Positions 16,348 to 34,117 of a stretch of 54,350 bases of DNA are shown one piece after another. A program made the translations under genes and the position numbers. Source of the DNA: Actinomycetes bacterium (lineage in GTDB: Bacteria; Actinomycetota; CALGFH01); contig DASYUT010000106.1 of the NCBI GenBank assembly GCA_036000965.1, forward strand, positions 1 to 54,350, read 5' to 3'. Under the pieces are notes generated by a model. It was not told the origin of the DNA. It made no database searches and saw only the letters and a program-made list of their open reading frames with translations. Within the stretch, counting starts at the first letter, position 1; each line of letters opens with the position of its first letter.

Positions 16348-19300
16348 TCAGAGCCTGGGGGCGCGGTCGGCCGGCTCCGCCGCCGGCTGGGCCGGCCCGG
16401 AGGCACGGCCTTCGGAGTCGGAGGCGACCCTGCGAGCCGGCGTGGCACGGGTCGCGCGGCCGTTGGCGGCGGCCCGGTCGGGTGGCGGGAAGCCTCGGGC
16501 CGGGAAGCCAGGGGGCGGAGGCCGCCGCGGCAGCCCTGGTTCGGCAGGCGGGGGCGTGCCCCGCCCGGCCCGCAGCCGGTGCCCCACGAGCAGGGCGAGG
16601 GCGAGCAGCGCCCAGGCGCCCAGCGCGACGCCCGAGTGGACGAGCAGGCGGTCGGTCGAGCCCGCCGCCGGGTCCTCGGGCCACATAGCGGGCAGGTCGG
16701 GTACGGGCTGCGGGCGCAGCGCCTCGGCCGGAACGAGCCCGGCCTTCACCGCGACCATCCCGATGGGGGCGAGCCGGGCCGAGCCCTCCCGGTCCACCTC
16801 GATGACGACCCGCTCGAACGCCTGCCGGACGACGCCTGGCGCGGTCGGGCGCGGGCGGGAGACCGGGCTGCCGTAGCGCGCGTCCGCCGCCTGCCACACC
16901 ACGGGGTCGGCGGTCTCAACGGGCGCGCCGAGGTAGAAGCGGGCGATCCTCGGGTCGGTGAGCAACTGCCGCCGCACCTGGACGCTGGCATCAGGTCCGG
17001 TCTCGGGCTGCGGCATGCCGCTCGCGGCGAGCAGCGTGGGCACGTTGTGGGCGAGTTGCGCGACCAGCCTGACCGGCCGGACCACCTTCGGGCCCCCGTC
17101 CGCACCGCCCACGGTGCCGAGGACCATCGTGTCGAATGCCTGCAGGGTCCGACCGCTCGTCCGCCACGACCGGCTGAGCGGGCGGCCGATCATGGACTTG
17201 CCGCCGATCGCCTGGTAGCCGGAGAAGAACTGGCCCGCGTCGTCGTCTACCACGGGGAAGCCGCCGCAGCTGGAGCCGACGGCGTTCTCGAACACCCCAC
17301 CGGGGATCAGCAGCAGGTCCGCCACCCGGCTGGTCGACGGCTGGCTCACCTGCCACAGCTCGACGCTCCCGTGGCTCCGGCTCGGGACGGCTGCGATCGG
17401 CTTGCCCTCGGCCCGCAGCCAGCCGGCCAACCCGGCCGACATCGTCCCCCGCCCCGCGGCCACGTCGTCGGCCCGGAGCAGGAAGTAGCGGACGCCGTGG
17501 GCGAGGGCGGCCGGGCCGCTCGAGAACTCGGTCACCCGGCGCTCGTCGATCGTGAACAGGTCCGGGTCGGCCGGGCTGGACCCGTTCAGCACCGAGCAGG
17601 ACGGTGTCTCGCCGGCCACAAGCTTGCTGATCCGGGCGAGCGCGTCGTCGGGCTGTCCGTAGCGCCCGCTCCAGCCCGACCCGGCGAGCACAAGCAGCCC
17701 GACCACGAGCACGGGCGCGGCCAGCGCCGAGATTCGTCCGAGCACGACGCGCCCGCCGGCGAGCCGGGCCCGGGCCGCCTCGAACCCGAGCACGACCGCG
17801 GCGGTCGCCCCCGGCAGCAGGTAGGTCATCCAGGTCTCGTCGAGGGCGCCGCCCGCGAGGAGCAGCATCCCGGCCACGGCGCCGGCCAGATTCCAGGCGA
17901 GCACGAAGAGCCGGGCGCGGTCGGACCGCCAGCGCCACAGGGCGGCCAGCGTGGGCAGGGCCAGCGCGAGCACGGCCACGGTGGCGAGGTCGCGTGGTAC
18001 GGCCAGGGAGAGCGGCCTGCCGAGCGGCAGGGGCCGGTCCGGTCGTACGAGGTGGACGAGCGCGGCCAGCCGGCGCAGCAAGGCCAGGCCTGCGTCGGCA
18101 CCGCCCGGGTCGGCGGTGAGTGCCCAGGCCGCGTAGGCCGACCAGAACCAGGCGCCGGTCAGCAGGGCGGCCAGCGCCCGGCCGGCGAAGGGCTCGGGTC
18201 GGCCGCGGGCGAGCACGCCGAACACCACCGGCACGACCAGCAGGACCACGGTCCGGCCGTCCGCGAGCAGGGCGACCCCCGAGGCGAGGCCGACGACCGG
18301 CACGTATACCGCTGCCGGCCGGTCGCGGAGCAGCCAGGCCAGCCAGAGGGCGAGCAGCCCGGCCAGCAGCCCCAGGGCCTCGACGGTCACCATCCGTCCG
18401 GCACCGACCAGGACCGGGTCGAGGGCGGCGACCAGGGCGGCGGCAAGGCCGACCAGGAAGCGGAGCATCCCGTCCTGCGCCGGATCGGTGAGGGCCAGCA
18501 CGAGCAGCGCGAGCACCCCGATCGCCAGGGCGAGGCAGACGCTGGACACCAGCCGGCCCTGGTGGATCGATGGGACCACCTCACCGGTCGCACGCCCGGT
18601 GAGCGAGAGCCAGGCGCCGTGGAGGGCGAACGGGAGCGGAGGCTGGTCCAGCACGGGCTCACCGCGCCACGCCAGCCCGCCCGCACGGGCCACGTTGCGG
18701 GCCACCTGGACGGCGGCTGCCTCGCTGGCACTCGCGTCCGGACTGCGGTCGGCGTACAGCGCCGAGACCAGGAAGGCGACGGCGGCGACCAGGATGGCGG
18801 CGGCGACCCGCGCGAGCCCCGGGCCTGGGGCAGGCCGGCGGTCCGGAGCCCGCCGCGGCCGGGGGGCCGCCGGGTCGGTCCGGCCGGCTGCGGCTCGTGA
18901 GGGCACCACCACGCCCGGCGCGGGCGGCGCGCCCGGCGCGGGCGGCGCGCCCAGCGCGGGCGGCGTTCCCGGCGCTGCCCGTGTTCCGGGCGGCTCCGGC
19001 GTTCCCGGCGTGGCCCGTGTTCCCGGCGGGGGCGGTGTTCCCGGCGGGGGCGGTGTTCCCGGCGGGGGCGGTGTTCCCGGCGGAGGCGGTGTTCCCGGCG
19101 GAGGAGGCCAGGGATCGAGCTCGGCGGGTCGCGCGCCCGCCTCCCGGCTGGCAACGGGCGGCCAGGGCTCCAGCTCCCCGGGACGGGCTCTCCGGCTCGG
19201 CACGGACCGCGGTCCTGGTCCGGGGCGGGGCGCCGGGCCCGCCGGAGCCAGTCCTGCCCCGCCTTCGGAGCCGGTGTCCGGCGGTCCCCCTGGGGTCGGC

Positions 19301-20736
19301 AGGTCTGGCGGTCCCCCTGGGGTGGGCGGGCCCGGCGGTCCCCCTGGGATCGGCAGACCCGGCGTTGGCGGCAGCAGGTCGCGGCCTGGGCCGAGCCGGA
19401 TCTGCCCGCCCGCCGGCCCCAGCTCTGGGTCCTGCTGCCCCTCGGACGCGCCCGAAGGCGGCGCCTGCGACCGCGTGGCAGCCTGCGGACGGGGCGGGAC
19501 AGCGTCCGAGGGCCAGGCCTGCGGGCGCGCCACGTCCGATGCGTACGGCCGGACCTGCGGGCCAGGAGAGCGGGCGGCGTCGCCCGGGTCGGGCACCGGT
19601 GGCGGCGTCCCCGCGCGCTCCCCTGCCGGCCGTGACCGTGCGGGGGGCGGCGCGGGCGCCGCCCCATGGGGCGGCGCGGGCGCCGCCCCATGGGGCGGCG
19701 CGGGGGGCGGCCCATGGGGCTCCCCGGCGTGCGCCGGCAAGGTGGGCGTGAACCAGTCCGCCTCCGCCAGCCTGGACGGCCGCCTCGCGGTCGCACCGAA
19801 CCAGTCGTCCACCTGCGGAACCGGTCCCTGATCCCCGGGGACAGGCCTGGGTGGAGCACCATCCTGGGAGGGGCTGGCGGCCCCAGGGGTGGACCCGGGC
19901 GGAGCGGCACCCGCTGAGGGGGGCTCCGGCGAGGGCGGCGGCACCTCCGCGGTTTGGCCGCGCCGCAACGGCGCGACGGCTCCGTGCGGAGCATCGGGTG
20001 GCGCGAGCGGAGGGACGGCCGAGGCTCCCGACTCGGCGGGGAGCCCGTCGCGTCCAGCGAGTGGCTGGTCCGGCGGCCCGGGTCCGCCGGGGGCCTCCGG
20101 CGCCGTGGAGGCCCGGGGCCACTCGGGCGCCGCGGACTGTGCGGGCGCCGGGGGCTCGGCGGGCGCTCTCGGTGCCGCGGTCATCTTCGGCGGGGCGGGG
20201 GCCTTCGGCGGCGCGGGGGCCCTCGGCGGCGCGGGCGCCTTCGGCGGGGCGGTCATCTTCGGCGCGGCGGGCGGCCTCGGCGGGCCAGGGGCCCTCGGCG
20301 GGGCGGGCGCCTTCGGCGGGCTGGGGGCCGGCCGCGGCTCACCGCGGCGGGCCGGGCCGCTGCCGGCGTTGCCCCTCCAGCGCCCACCGGCGGGGACGAC
20401 CAGCTCCCTGGACAGGTCGTGGAGCTGGAAGGGGCGCCGCAGGAGCACGCAGGCCGCGTCGCCCTCGAACGAGTCGTCCTGCTCGCCGGTGAGGAGCAGG
20501 ATCACGATGCGGCCGGAGAACTCCTCGCGGACCGCGGCGTACGCGTCCCACCGAGAGCCGCGTGGGAAGTCGAGCACGACCGTGTCCCGGCCCGGGTTGA
20601 GCTCGCCCGGCTGGTCGTCCGGACGCTCGAGCTGGATCACCCGGTCCTCGTCGGGGAGCAGGGTCCGCAGCGCGACGGTGAGACCGGCGTCCCGCGTGAA
20701 CAGCACGATCCGCCTAGCGATACGGCCAGCCACCAA
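16348..20736 (-). CDS. 1462-residue fusion: receiver-like domain, long Pro-rich region, GT-C/PMT-like membrane domain
   Basis: Start TTG 20736 (GTG 20733 is equally close) after a GGAGGGG-rich site. Residues 1-115 look like a degenerate receiver: RIVLFTRD, TVVLDFPRG, GRIVILLLTGEQDD and VLLRRPFQLHDLS, with Arg where the active Lys of LLKPF should be. Residues about 120-630 are low-complexity Pro/Ala/Gly with several DNA-level tandem repeats (PPKAP, APAPPHG, GTPPPP). From about 636 a multi-spanning domain follows. Its first loop, SASEAAAVQVARNVARAGG then LDQPPLPFALHGAWLSLTG, resembles ArnT/PMT (GT39, GT83) glycosyltransferases using polyprenyl donors. A soluble part (about 985-1365), a last helix (about 1370-1388) and another Pro-rich tail complete it. 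It is probably a membrane glycosyltransferase with a cytosolic sensor-like head; this is inference. Confidence 0.7.
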   Translation of the reverse strand: MVAGRIARRIVLFTRDAGLTVALRTLLPDEDRVIQLERPDDQPGELNPGRDTVVLDFPRGSRWDAYAAVREEFSGRIVILLLTGEQDDSFEGDAACVLLRRPFQLHDLSRELVVPAGGRWRGNAGSGPARRGEPRPAPSPPKAPAPPRAPGPPRPPAAPKMTAPPKAPAPPRAPAPPKAPAPPKMTAAPRAPAEPPAPAQSAAPEWPRASTAPEAPGGPGPPDQPLAGRDGLPAESGASAVPPLAPPDAPHGAVAPLRRGQTAEVPPPSPEPPSAGAAPPGSTPGAASPSQDGAPPRPVPGDQGPVPQVDDWFGATARRPSRLAEADWFTPTLPAHAGEPHGPPPAPPHGAAPAPPHGAAPAPPPARSRPAGERAGTPPPVPDPGDAARSPGPQVRPYASDVARPQAWPSDAVPPRPQAATRSQAPPSGASEGQQDPELGPAGGQIRLGPGRDLLPPTPGLPIPGGPPGPPTPGGPPDLPTPGGPPDTGSEGGAGLAPAGPAPRPGPGPRSVPSRRARPGELEPWPPVASREAGARPAELDPWPPPPGTPPPPGTPPPPGTPPPPGTPPPPGTRATPGTPEPPGTRAAPGTPPALGAPPAPGAPPAPGVVVPSRAAAGRTDPAAPRPRRAPDRRPAPGPGLARVAAAILVAAVAFLVSALYADRSPDASASEAAAVQVARNVARAGGLAWRGEPVLDQPPLPFALHGAWLSLTGRATGEVVPSIHQGRLVSSVCLALAIGVLALLVLALTDPAQDGMLRFLVGLAAALVAALDPVLVGAGRMVTVEALGLLAGLLALWLAWLLRDRPAAVYVPVVGLASGVALLADGRTVVLLVVPVVFGVLARGRPEPFAGRALAALLTGAWFWSAYAAWALTADPGGADAGLALLRRLAALVHLVRPDRPLPLGRPLSLAVPRDLATVAVLALALPTLAALWRWRSDRARLFVLAWNLAGAVAGMLLLAGGALDETWMTYLLPGATAAVVLGFEAARARLAGGRVVLGRISALAAPVLVVGLLVLAGSGWSGRYGQPDDALARISKLVAGETPSCSVLNGSSPADPDLFTIDERRVTEFSSGPAALAHGVRYFLLRADDVAAGRGTMSAGLAGWLRAEGKPIAAVPSRSHGSVELWQVSQPSTSRVADLLLIPGGVFENAVGSSCGGFPVVDDDAGQFFSGYQAIGGKSMIGRPLSRSWRTSGRTLQAFDTMVLGTVGGADGGPKVVRPVRLVAQLAHNVPTLLAASGMPQPETGPDASVQVRRQLLTDPRIARFYLGAPVETADPVVWQAADARYGSPVSRPRPTAPGVVRQAFERVVIEVDREGSARLAPIGMVAVKAGLVPAEALRPQPVPDLPAMWPEDPAAGSTDRLLVHSGVALGAWALLALALLVGHRLRAGRGTPPPAEPGLPRRPPPPGFPARGFPPPDRAAANGRATRATPARRVASDSEGRASGPAQPAAEPADRAPRL
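19018..19103. repeat. 18-nt in-frame tandem repeat (five copies) coding for GTPPPP
   Basis: The unit GTGTTCCCGGCGGGGGCG is repeated almost exactly five times, giving the GTPPPP-type repeat at about residues 545-573 of the fusion protein. Further in-frame repeats occur in the same linker: 27-nt units at 19283-19360, a 21-nt unit with CCCCATGGGGCGGCG at 19640-19715 and PPKAP/PPRAP units at 20190-20330. Near-identity at DNA level suggests recent expansion by slippage. Confidence 0.8.
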
Positions 20737-31037: not shown

Positions 31038-32825
31038 TCAGAACGGCCGGGCGATGCCTCCGCCGATCCTGCCCCCGCGCTCGCCCGAGGAGGCCCGCAG
31101 GGCCATCCTGCGGTCCCGGAACCACGGGCGCAGGGTAATGAAGGCCGGGGGCATGTGCCCGTAGAGCAGCACGCCCTGCCCCGGCTGGATGCGGCGCAGC
31201 GCCTCCGCCGGCGACGCGCCCGGCCTGGACCGGGCCAGCGCGCCCTCCTTCTTCTCCCCGTCGGCGGCAGCGGCCCCGGACGCCGCGGCCGGCGCGACCT
31301 GGCGCAGCGTCTCGTCCTCGAGCAGGTGCGAGAGCAGGCCGAGCGTGCGCTCGTCGGTGATGCCGCTCAGCAGGATCTTGGCGCGGTGGTTGGCGAAGAC
31401 GGCCTCGGCCCGGTCGGCGTAGCGGGAGTGGATCTGGTTCAGGTCCCGGAAGGTGGTCAGGAGCTGGACGCCGCTGCTGGCCGCGGTCGACGCGAGCAGG
31501 TCGAGCTGGGGCAGGGCCGCGGACACGGCGGCGTCGTCGAGCGCCACCAGCAAGGGTGGGTGAAGCGGCATCCCGGTACTGGCCGACTTCTGGTAGGCCA
31601 GGTCGATGACCTCCTGGAGCAGCGCGACGAACAGCGGGCCGAGCCGGCGCTGCTCGTGGGCTGCCGCGCACACGTAGGCGGTGTTCGCGCCGCCGTCGAG
31701 CAGGCGCTCGGCGGTGAGCTGGGTGGCGGGCACCGCCTCCTTGACCGCTGGGTCGGCGTAGGCCACCACAGCGGCCAGGACGTTCGCGTACACCTGGCTG
31801 CGGTTGTCGCCCAGGTTCCACACCGACTGGATCGCGTCCTCCGCGGCCTGGTCCTCGGCCATGTTGAGGGCGGCGGTGACCTCCTGGCGGACCTCGGCCC
31901 GGTCCAGGCGCTGCACCCAGCGGACCACGTCGGCCATGCTCCGCCCCGTGATGGCGGCTGCGTGGAGCAGCGGCGCGAGCAGCGTGGGCGCCATGTTGTG
32001 GTGCAGGTCGGGGTCTTGCATGGCCGCCTGGGCCTGCGGCTGGCCCGCGCTCACCAGCGACAGGGCGGTCCGGTAGGCGCCGTGCCAGGTCCCGCAGCGG
32101 CCAAGCGGCGACCAGGAGTTCTGGTCCAGCCCGGTGATCCCGGTCGGGTCGTAGAGGTAGACCTCCCCCCGCTGCCAGCGCTGGTCGATGGTGTTGCGGA
32201 CCAGGTCGGACTTGATCGAGGCGGCCAGGACCGGCCCGTCCCACTCGAACACGGCCGGCACCACCAGCCCGGCCGTCTTCTGGCTCTGGGTGGGGCCGAG
32301 CGCGATCACCGACTGCAGCGGCTCGGCCGCGACCGGCCGGCCGTTGACCCGCCCGAGCGTGACCCGCCCGGGCATCGGCTCCCGCACGTACAGGTCGCGG
32401 AACGCCTGCGGGCGGGCCCAGGCCGGCTGCTGGCCCTTGGCGGCGGCCGCGCGTGGGCCGGGTACCACGATCACCTTGCCGAGCCGGCGGCGCACGGTCC
32501 GCAGCCCCAGGTTCAGGTACATCAGCACGGCGGTGAGCAGCAGGAGCAGCAGCCCGAAGATGAAGTAGAAGCCGACCGGGCCAGGCAGCAGGTCCCTCGT
32601 CTGCGGCGGCCATGCGACCGCCGGGTCGCCGGGGTGGCGCACGAGGTTGACCAGCACCGGCCCCATGTCGCTGATCGAGACCTTGGGCCAGCGGTGCCCG
32701 TGCAGCCAGCCGGCGACCTCCCCGGTCAGCCAGAGCACGGCCCCACCGCCGAGCACGATCGCGATGCCGAGCAGGAGCGCCTGGTCGAGCGGGCCTTCCC
32801 GCTTCACGACCTTCTTGGCGCTCAT
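31038..32825 (-). CDS. VirD4/TraG-like coupling ATPase of a type IV secretion system
   Basis: 595 residues from ATG 32825, overlapping the previous stop. Two membrane helices (about 17-34 and 88-110) precede the ATPase domain. The P-loop region reads ALGPTQSQKTAGLVVPA: the Gly before the catalytic Lys is Gln. Further family features are EWDGPVLAASIKSDLV, LYDPTGITG, a Walker B-like LLVALDD (Asp-Asp instead of Asp-Glu) and ASSGVQLLTTFRDLNQIHSRY followed by NHRAKILLSGI. Coupling proteins bring substrates to the channel. It is the last gene of the seven-gene cluster. The C-terminus has a Pro/Ala-rich segment near 510-530. Confidence 0.9.
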   Translation of the reverse strand: MSAKKVVKREGPLDQALLLGIAIVLGGGAVLWLTGEVAGWLHGHRWPKVSISDMGPVLVNLVRHPGDPAVAWPPQTRDLLPGPVGFYFIFGLLLLLLTAVLMYLNLGLRTVRRRLGKVIVVPGPRAAAAKGQQPAWARPQAFRDLYVREPMPGRVTLGRVNGRPVAAEPLQSVIALGPTQSQKTAGLVVPAVFEWDGPVLAASIKSDLVRNTIDQRWQRGEVYLYDPTGITGLDQNSWSPLGRCGTWHGAYRTALSLVSAGQPQAQAAMQDPDLHHNMAPTLLAPLLHAAAITGRSMADVVRWVQRLDRAEVRQEVTAALNMAEDQAAEDAIQSVWNLGDNRSQVYANVLAAVVAYADPAVKEAVPATQLTAERLLDGGANTAYVCAAAHEQRRLGPLFVALLQEVIDLAYQKSASTGMPLHPPLLVALDDAAVSAALPQLDLLASTAASSGVQLLTTFRDLNQIHSRYADRAEAVFANHRAKILLSGITDERTLGLLSHLLEDETLRQVAPAAASGAAAADGEKKEGALARSRPGASPAEALRRIQPGQGVLLYGHMPPAFITLRPWFRDRRMALRASSGERGGRIGGGIARPF

Positions 32826-34117
32826 GAGGCAGGCTCCACCGCCTCGGGCACCGGCAGGCCGGTCCAGCCGCTCGGCGCGGACGAGGCGATCCCCATGTTG
32901 GCGTCGGTGTCGACGATCTCCCGCTCGAGCACCGGGTCCAGGCGGTGCTGGACGATGAACGAGCGGCGGCCCACGCGCCACAGCGCCTCGCCCCGCTCCA
33001 GGGTGGGGATCTGGTCCACCTCGGTCTGGGTGAGCCCGAGCAGCTCCCGGGCCTGCTCGACCTCGCCCGGGGACTGACGGTAGATCACCCGGGTCTCGGA
33101 GTCCTCGAGCAGCCCCTTGGCCAGCTGCACCTGCTCCGAGCCGGTGTCCCCGGCCGCGGTCAGGTCCGAGAGTCGGTGCATCACCGCGATGTTCTGCACC
33201 CCGTACTGGCGGGCCAGCTTCCAGCTCTCCCGCAGCCAGCGGGCGATGGCCAGGTGGCGCAGCACGACCCAGGCCTCGTCGAGCACCACGATGCGCTTCA
33301 CGCCGTCGTCGCGGGCCCAGGAGCCCTGCAGCCAGGCCGCCGTGCAGGCCATCAGGATCGGGCGGGCCTCGTCCTTGACCTCGCGCAGGTTGAACACCAC
33401 CAGCCGGCCGGACAGGTCGAGCCCGCTCGAGGTCGGCCCGTCGAACATGCCGCGAAGGTCGCCGGCGCCCATGCGGCGCAGCGAGAGCGCGAGCTGGCGG
33501 CCGTCCTCGGCCAGCCGCTCCGGCGAGGTCCGAAGCTCGTGGGCGGTGGCGTCGGAGGGTTCCAGCAGCCGGTTGACCACCTGCGGCACGGTCGGCTGGG
33601 CGCTGCGCCTGGACGCCTCGATGACCGCCTCGTCGTGGGCCCGCTCCAGGCAGGCGTCCTCCTCCGGCCTGAGGTTCCGCCCGAGCATCACCCCCGCGAT
33701 CGACCGCAGCAGCGCCAGCTGCGCGTCCCCCCCGATCATCGGGTCCAACGGGTTCAGCCGGATCTGCCCCCCGCTCACGAACCGGATCGGCTTCACCCCG
33801 CACACCGCCGCCAGCTGGTCGTACTCCCCCTTCGGGTCGATGATCCAGGCGGTCCGCCCGAAGAGCATCTGTCTCCATATGAACGTCTTCACGAGGCTCG
33901 ATTTTGCGTACCCGATCTGCCCGATGACGAGCATGTTAGGTCCGGTGATTTCCTTGCCATAGAGCGTCCACGCGTCGTAACAGAACGAGCCCCCGAATAC
34001 GTCACGTCCGATGTACACGCCACGGCTGCCAAGTCCGCCCTCGGAGATGAAGGGGTAGGCCGCCTGCAGGTGGGCGGTGGTGACCCGGTGCGCCGGCCGG
34101 CGAGGCTTGATCCTCAT
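32822..34117 (-). CDS. VirB4-like conjugation ATPase, C-terminal half only
   Basis: 431 residues. It has the ATPase portion of VirB4/TraC proteins: SEGGLGSRGVYIGRDVFGG then NMLVIGQIGYAKSSLVKTF (P-loop region, Ala in place of the usual Gly before Lys), WIIDPKGEYDQL, FNLREVKDEARPILMACT, and Walker B RIVVLDEAWVVL, followed by QNIAVMHRLSDL and EDSETRVIYRQSPGE. The N-terminal VirB4 domain is absent here and seems to be supplied by the next gene upstream. Codons around the P-loop (about 33850-34020) are less GC-rich than elsewhere. It powers assembly of the secretion channel. Confidence 0.88.
   Translation of the reverse strand: MRIKPRRPAHRVTTAHLQAAYPFISEGGLGSRGVYIGRDVFGGSFCYDAWTLYGKEITGPNMLVIGQIGYAKSSLVKTFIWRQMLFGRTAWIIDPKGEYDQLAAVCGVKPIRFVSGGQIRLNPLDPMIGGDAQLALLRSIAGVMLGRNLRPEEDACLERAHDEAVIEASRRSAQPTVPQVVNRLLEPSDATAHELRTSPERLAEDGRQLALSLRRMGAGDLRGMFDGPTSSGLDLSGRLVVFNLREVKDEARPILMACTAAWLQGSWARDDGVKRIVVLDEAWVVLRHLAIARWLRESWKLARQYGVQNIAVMHRLSDLTAAGDTGSEQVQLAKGLLEDSETRVIYRQSPGEVEQARELLGLTQTEVDQIPTLERGEALWRVGRRSFIVQHRLDPVLEREIVDTDANMGIASSAPSGWTGLPVPEAVEPAS

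Follow-up and report, generated by a model that had tools for sequence, protein, structure and literature searches.

The gene and its surroundings

The stretch of DNA analyzed here (the window; 54,350 nucleotides) makes up an entire contig of a draft genome of 6.47 Mb, which comprises 358 contigs and has an estimated contamination of 4.19%. On its minus strand, positions 16348 to 20736 form one open reading frame for a protein of 1,462 amino acids, with a TTG start codon at the 20736 end and an adjacent GTG, a GGAGG-type ribosome site close to the start and an in-frame TGA two codons 5' of it. From the N terminus, the protein consists of a receiver-like domain, a long low-complexity tether, a GT-C/PMT-like membrane region, a predicted extracytoplasmic domain, a last transmembrane helix and a Pro-rich tail. 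The G+C content at the third codon position is high over the receiver and membrane parts, and the linker is G+C-rich at all three positions because Pro, Ala, and Gly codons demand it, a pattern compatible with coding over the entire length. A scan for promoter and terminator consensus sequences around the gene start found none, and none was expected. The window protein had no match in a PADLOC defense-system search, a sequence search against solved structures returned nothing meaningful, and its C-terminal part had no match in a plasmid search.

Homologues of the window protein among 61 sampled genomes were restricted to the other two genomes of its family, G001 and G002, and one homologue copy is a named public record of an uncultured actinobacterium; the class is sampled by three genomes only (G000, G001, and G002). 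In a wider sample of 397 genomes of the phylum, with the best two candidates per genome considered, there was only one further partial match (L018; E = 6.8e-11), an ordinary GT-C-type protein whose frame carries a DE pair and an HPP motif. Two genome-wide scans revealed no relatives of the window protein beyond the same family. The orthologue in G002, which represents another genus, is encoded on contig C282 as one unbroken frame of 1,382 amino acids, in which the receiver-like domain is likewise followed by a long tether, a GT-C-like membrane region, an extracytoplasmic domain, and a last helix. The G001 orthologue is split by contig ends, its N-terminal piece being on C105 and its C-terminal piece on C427. 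A search for this domain order in other genomes had been proposed in the earlier note, which had recognized the single frame and named two genes with separate starts as the case against it; the G002 orthologue contradicts that case. The frame is real and is one gene rather than two, since the orthologue is also unbroken from the receiver to the last helix despite a very different linker. A draft of 358 contigs with some contamination could in principle contain two genes fused through an erroneous frame or misassembly, or a binning contaminant, but such an artifact is extremely improbable: the one-frame fusion recurs in G002, where the linker is unrelated, and paralogous fusions are present in all three family genomes.

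Upstream of the gene, across a gap of 326 bases, the same strand carries thrS and a HIT-domain gene. Its 3' end faces a LuxR-type response regulator gene across 39 bases, which agrees with the convergent arrangement reported earlier, and a polysaccharide locus lies beyond. The position at the edge of a polysaccharide locus is correct for the window, but it is not conserved. The G001 orthologue has a sortase gene and a DUF4397 gene upstream, whereas a PdtaS-type histidine kinase gene is located divergently upstream of the G002 orthologue, with a similar frame in G001. Downstream of the orthologue in both genomes there is a glutamate-synthase-like gene, which we take from its sequence to be gltB. 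Two other frames were recorded. A short sortase-like frame 5' of the G002 orthologue (L012:13374-13700) lacks the middle of the G001 sortase (L068:417-1139) and is either a shortened gene or an assembly error. Elsewhere in the window, positions 32822 to 34117 encode a TraG-like P-loop protein that may belong to a transfer or secretion system.

A family of pseudo-receivers on different proteins

The N-terminal domain (residues 8 to 112; positions 20401 to 20715, minus strand) was examined by orthologue alignment, profile, structure model, fold search, and key residues. Pfam Response_reg did not match the window protein or the G002 orthologue, whose receiver-like domains share 32% identity (E = 2e-12). 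Compared with 22 receivers from the same genome, a two-row profile of these domains scored 33.0, a value never reached in 200 column shuffles (mean, 11.7; standard deviation, 2.4; maximum, 24.1). A further profile comparison gave P = 2.5e-7 for the receiver match. The structure model was moderate (pLDDT, 68; pTM, 0.60) and lacked helices alpha-2 and alpha-4. In the PDB fold search, nearly all of the best matches to this model were receivers (TM of about 0.6 to 0.67), although the top match (TM, 0.67) had an E value of 1.3e-3 and none passed 0.001. Profile comparison, model, and fold matches agree, and the homology of the domain to receivers holds. These data support the degenerate receiver fold that the earlier note had assigned to residues 1 to 115, with structure prediction as its check. 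A match of the G002 receiver to THF_DHG_CYH_C (E = 0.019) was weak and was judged to be due to chance.

In the window protein, the phosphoacceptor Asp position is retained at residue 56 (VVLDFP), the acidic pair is lost (TRD), and Arg replaces the active-site Lys (RRPF), the absence of which had been recognized earlier in the motif LRRPF. The domain lacks the full set of five conserved residues of a phosphorylatable response-regulator receiver and, with its Asp in place, differs from aspartate-less receivers. It is a pseudo-receiver as defined in PMC12632262, in that a receiver fold has lost the DD, T, and K positions and kept the D. With no Mg2+-binding acidic pair, Thr/Ser, or Lys left, it should hardly be phosphorylatable, although the Asp remains.

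The G002 domain alone retrieved further copies from the three family genomes (E values of 8e-15 to 6e-5), and a seven-row profile retrieved 11 pseudo-receivers (1e-43 to 6e-23). Four of them (C497, C268, C850, and C105) were not in the profile, C105 being the G001 orthologue of one of its rows. The next matches, at about 4e-3, were ordinary response regulators. Among 297 genomes of the phylum, with at most the 15 best candidates per genome considered, no member was found outside the family and only ordinary regulators matched, at 3e-5 or weaker. In a tree of 118 columns, in which the inner branching was weak, the 11 members grouped in a single clade (support, 100/99), separate from the ordinary response regulators. 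All 11 retain the Asp and have lost the acidic pair as a pair; Lys is replaced by Arg in all 10 members that reach this position, and Thr is lost in all but one. By comparison, 21 of 22 comparison receivers have all five residues if E is accepted for D and S for T. In every member, the loop behind the Asp has two residues fewer. Identity between members is low (about 30%), and the Asp, an Arg-Pro, and a Gly are invariant across paralogues on unrelated proteins. The earlier note was thus correct about a receiver in one protein and missed its membership in a family of 11 pseudo-receiver fusions. A limited search of the open-access literature found no such family. The window harbors a second pseudo-receiver by the same definition, a LuxR-type response regulator (positions 2292 to 2942) in whose receiver Cys replaces one of the two acidic residues and Ala the Thr.

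The disabled receiver is a module that one family of uncultured actinobacteria carries on four or more kinds of protein. GT-C-like partners are present in the window protein and its G002 and G001 orthologues. Two G000 members (C149 and C268) are single-pass proteins with a short Cys-containing outer domain. G001 C425 and G002 C850 are single-pass proteins with a Cys motif and a Thr/Pro-rich outer tail, and both genes are directly 3' of a CoA-transferase gene, identified by Pfam in G001 and by the similar start of its frame in G002; G002 C497 resembles them but is cut by a contig end. The G001 C69 member carries DUF4012 (E = 1e-29), and its gene directly follows, and overlaps the end of, a sugar transferase gene. 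The G002 C318 member is a very long low-complexity protein encoded directly after tadC, with a possible but not firm C-terminal GAF domain (E = 0.058). The G000 C52 member occupies the same place but is cut by a contig end; there (L063:1-8364), the Tad pilus operon cpaB-cpaE-tadA-tadB-tadC is followed by the pseudo-receiver protein, so that this arrangement occurs in two genera. A comparison of neighboring genes over the fusion classes revealed none common to all. The theme common to the fusion partners is the cell surface, and the setting varies by class. Several nearby frames were also noted: the tadB-like gene of L063 (2916-4913) additionally encodes a von Willebrand A domain, a single frame adjoining the C149 member (L064:4834-6273) encodes an ECF sigma factor fused to a bifunctional nuclease (BFN) domain, and a gene 3' of the C268 member (L065:5150-5962) encodes a weakly DivIVA-like coiled-coil protein (E = 0.01), a possible polar partner.

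Tether, membrane body, and outer domain

The low-complexity tether, predicted to be cytoplasmic, spans residues 119 to 636 (positions 18829 to 20382, minus strand) and contains 32% Pro with a period of 6. This composition is not conserved. The tether of the G002 orthologue, similar in length, consists of 34% Ala, 20% Arg, and 15% Glu with a period of 18, which would suit a long helix. A Pro-rich linker had been part of the architecture described earlier, but with an Ala/Arg/Glu-rich tether in the orthologue it is not a defining feature. Over the family, tether length is estimated to range from roughly 45 to roughly 900 residues. The two orthologues thus represent a natural experiment in which length is similar and both composition and period (6 versus 18) are wholly different.

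The membrane region (residues 637 to 1024; positions 17665 to 18828, minus strand) has about 10 to 11 helices as judged from its sequence. Its match to PMT_2 (PF13231) was below threshold (E = 0.0055; 17.4 bits versus a cutoff of 26.1), and the membrane-region profile aligned with L018 from end to end but weakly (score of 24.0 versus a shuffle maximum of 21.6). Because the structure model of this region, built from a three-row alignment, was unusable (pLDDT, 37.6) and was set aside, the GT-C fold and the topology rest on sequence. In the first extracytoplasmic loop (SPDASASE; positions 18721 to 18744, minus strand), located by alignment with L018 and G002, the Asp of the DE pair of GT-C enzymes is Ser in the window protein and Gly in G002, and the Glu is kept. 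This Glu and an Asp five residues ahead of it (PD) are retained in both full orthologues, in a loop that otherwise diverges strongly between them. The Asp at this place (JM1) has been proposed to act as the catalytic base of PimE, and it corresponds to the Asp that is catalytic in ArnT, ALG6, and PglB (PMC12041525). Its replacement by Ser or Gly makes transferase activity of the membrane body doubtful. The GT-C/PMT-like assignment made earlier is partly supported, through the weak PMT_2 match and the colinearity with L018, but PMT_2 stays below its cutoff and the catalytic Asp is not conserved; LDQPPLPF (positions 18628 to 18651, minus strand), cited as an ArnT/PMT-like first-loop feature, is absent from the G002 orthologue.

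The predicted extracytoplasmic domain (residues 1025 to 1362; positions 16651 to 17664, minus strand) has no Pfam match. It contains the most conserved stretch compared, residues 1135 to 1235, with 53% identity versus 32 to 39% in the membrane part. LGFP-like repeats suspected in it by eye were rejected, as there was neither a Pfam match in the domain nor a match to the LGFP family in the genome. The domain is followed by the last transmembrane helix (residues 1363 to 1388; positions 16573 to 16650, minus strand) and the Pro-rich tail of 74 residues (positions 16351 to 16572, minus strand). The last helix and the tail had both been described, whereas the roughly 340 extracytoplasmic residues ahead of the helix had been overlooked, and the tail is absent from the orthologue.

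A docking domain as a tentative reading

Because the same disabled domain is fused to several different surface proteins, it may be a docking tag common to them and not a switch. Our preferred reading, held with somewhat less than even confidence, is that the pseudo-receiver acts in docking or localization, independently of phosphorylation, on a flexible tether, and that the membrane body is altered or inactive. The N-terminal 110 residues would be a cytoplasmic pseudo-receiver on one polytopic membrane protein, linked to the membrane body by a tether of roughly 520 residues of which the length, and not the particular sequence, would be needed. The domain may bind a putative common cytoplasmic partner without phosphotransfer, and this binding would gather or position the window protein and the surface proteins of its paralogues at envelope or pilus assembly sites. 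The membrane body, which seems to derive from GT-C sugar transferases, bears the conserved extracytoplasmic domain; it is probably catalytically altered or inactive, and the outer domain would do the work outside. The binding or scaffold role suggested earlier can be regarded as likely. A broader version, in which pseudo-receivers on interchangeable tethers form a general address tag that brings unrelated surface proteins (GT-C-like, DUF4012, single-pass surface, and Tad-pilus-operon proteins) to one cytoplasmic hub, is a more speculative possibility.

Under another explanation, the membrane body is an active GT-C sugar transferase in which the Glu that remains, or the conserved Asp close to it (SPD), would serve to pass sugar from a lipid carrier onto a glycan or protein of the surface; the pseudo-receiver would switch this enzyme in cis on sensing a ligand or a protein. 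Colinearity with L018, the PD and E of the first loop in both full orthologues, the adjacent polysaccharide locus, and the sortase gene just upstream in G001 are in accordance with this. However, the loss of the JM1 Asp, which is catalytic in ALG6, ArnT, PglB, and PimE (PMC12041525), the subthreshold PMT_2 match, the divergence of the first loop, and the same pseudo-receiver on non-transferase paralogues make it rather unlikely. That the domain is purely a structural tail, a folded cap or insertion aid with no specific partner that was kept by drift and gene duplication, would account for the low identity between members and the unconstrained tether sequence; the Asp, Arg-Pro, and Gly invariant across paralogues on unrelated proteins point instead to selection, and we consider this improbable. 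Least plausible among these functional readings is a receiver that is still phosphorylated, with a kinase acting on the retained Asp, Arg serving for Lys, and surface proteins being switched by a two-component system. The Asp is invariant in all 11 members, an unexpected feature for a domain that works without phosphorylation, and the PdtaS-type kinase gene is located divergently upstream in G002, with a similar frame in G001. Nevertheless, no member has kept the metal-binding pair of acidic residues, the Lys is lost in 10 of 10 and the Thr in 10 of 11, and the loop behind the Asp is shortened throughout, so that this explanation is very unlikely.

The closest parallel to the preferred docking role is FrzS of Myxococcus xanthus, a soluble protein whose pseudo-receiver is followed by a long coiled coil, to which the possibly helical tether of the G002 orthologue can be compared; the window protein, in contrast, is a polytopic membrane protein. 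The N-terminal pseudo-receiver of FrzS controls polar localization and works without Asp phosphorylation (PMC1974792), and a similar role of the window domain is suggested by analogy. FrzS lacks a canonical Asp site, whereas the window domain keeps its Asp, and because its model is devoid of alpha-2 and alpha-4, the face used by FrzS may be absent. Compared with bacterial pseudo-receivers in general, the switching of which has been described as an open question (PMC12632262), the present members form their own clade with shared deletions and are fused to membrane or surface proteins, not to DNA-binding outputs. CpaE/TadZ also has an atypical receiver encoded in Tad-pilus operons, as is one pseudo-receiver paralogue, but CpaE goes on into a MinD-like ATPase. 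An origin from the CpaE/TadZ receiver was rejected, as a comparison with the one CpaE sequence of this genome showed no profile similarity (probability, 0.7%). Relative to PMT_2/ArnT-like GT-C proteins, the window protein shares the helix pattern and first-loop layout, in addition to the alignment with L018, and differs in the replaced catalytic Asp and the added pseudo-receiver and tether. The same residues kept on unrelated proteins in 11 members from three genomes make conserved surface residues separable from output-specific ones and permit a common partner to be sought directly.
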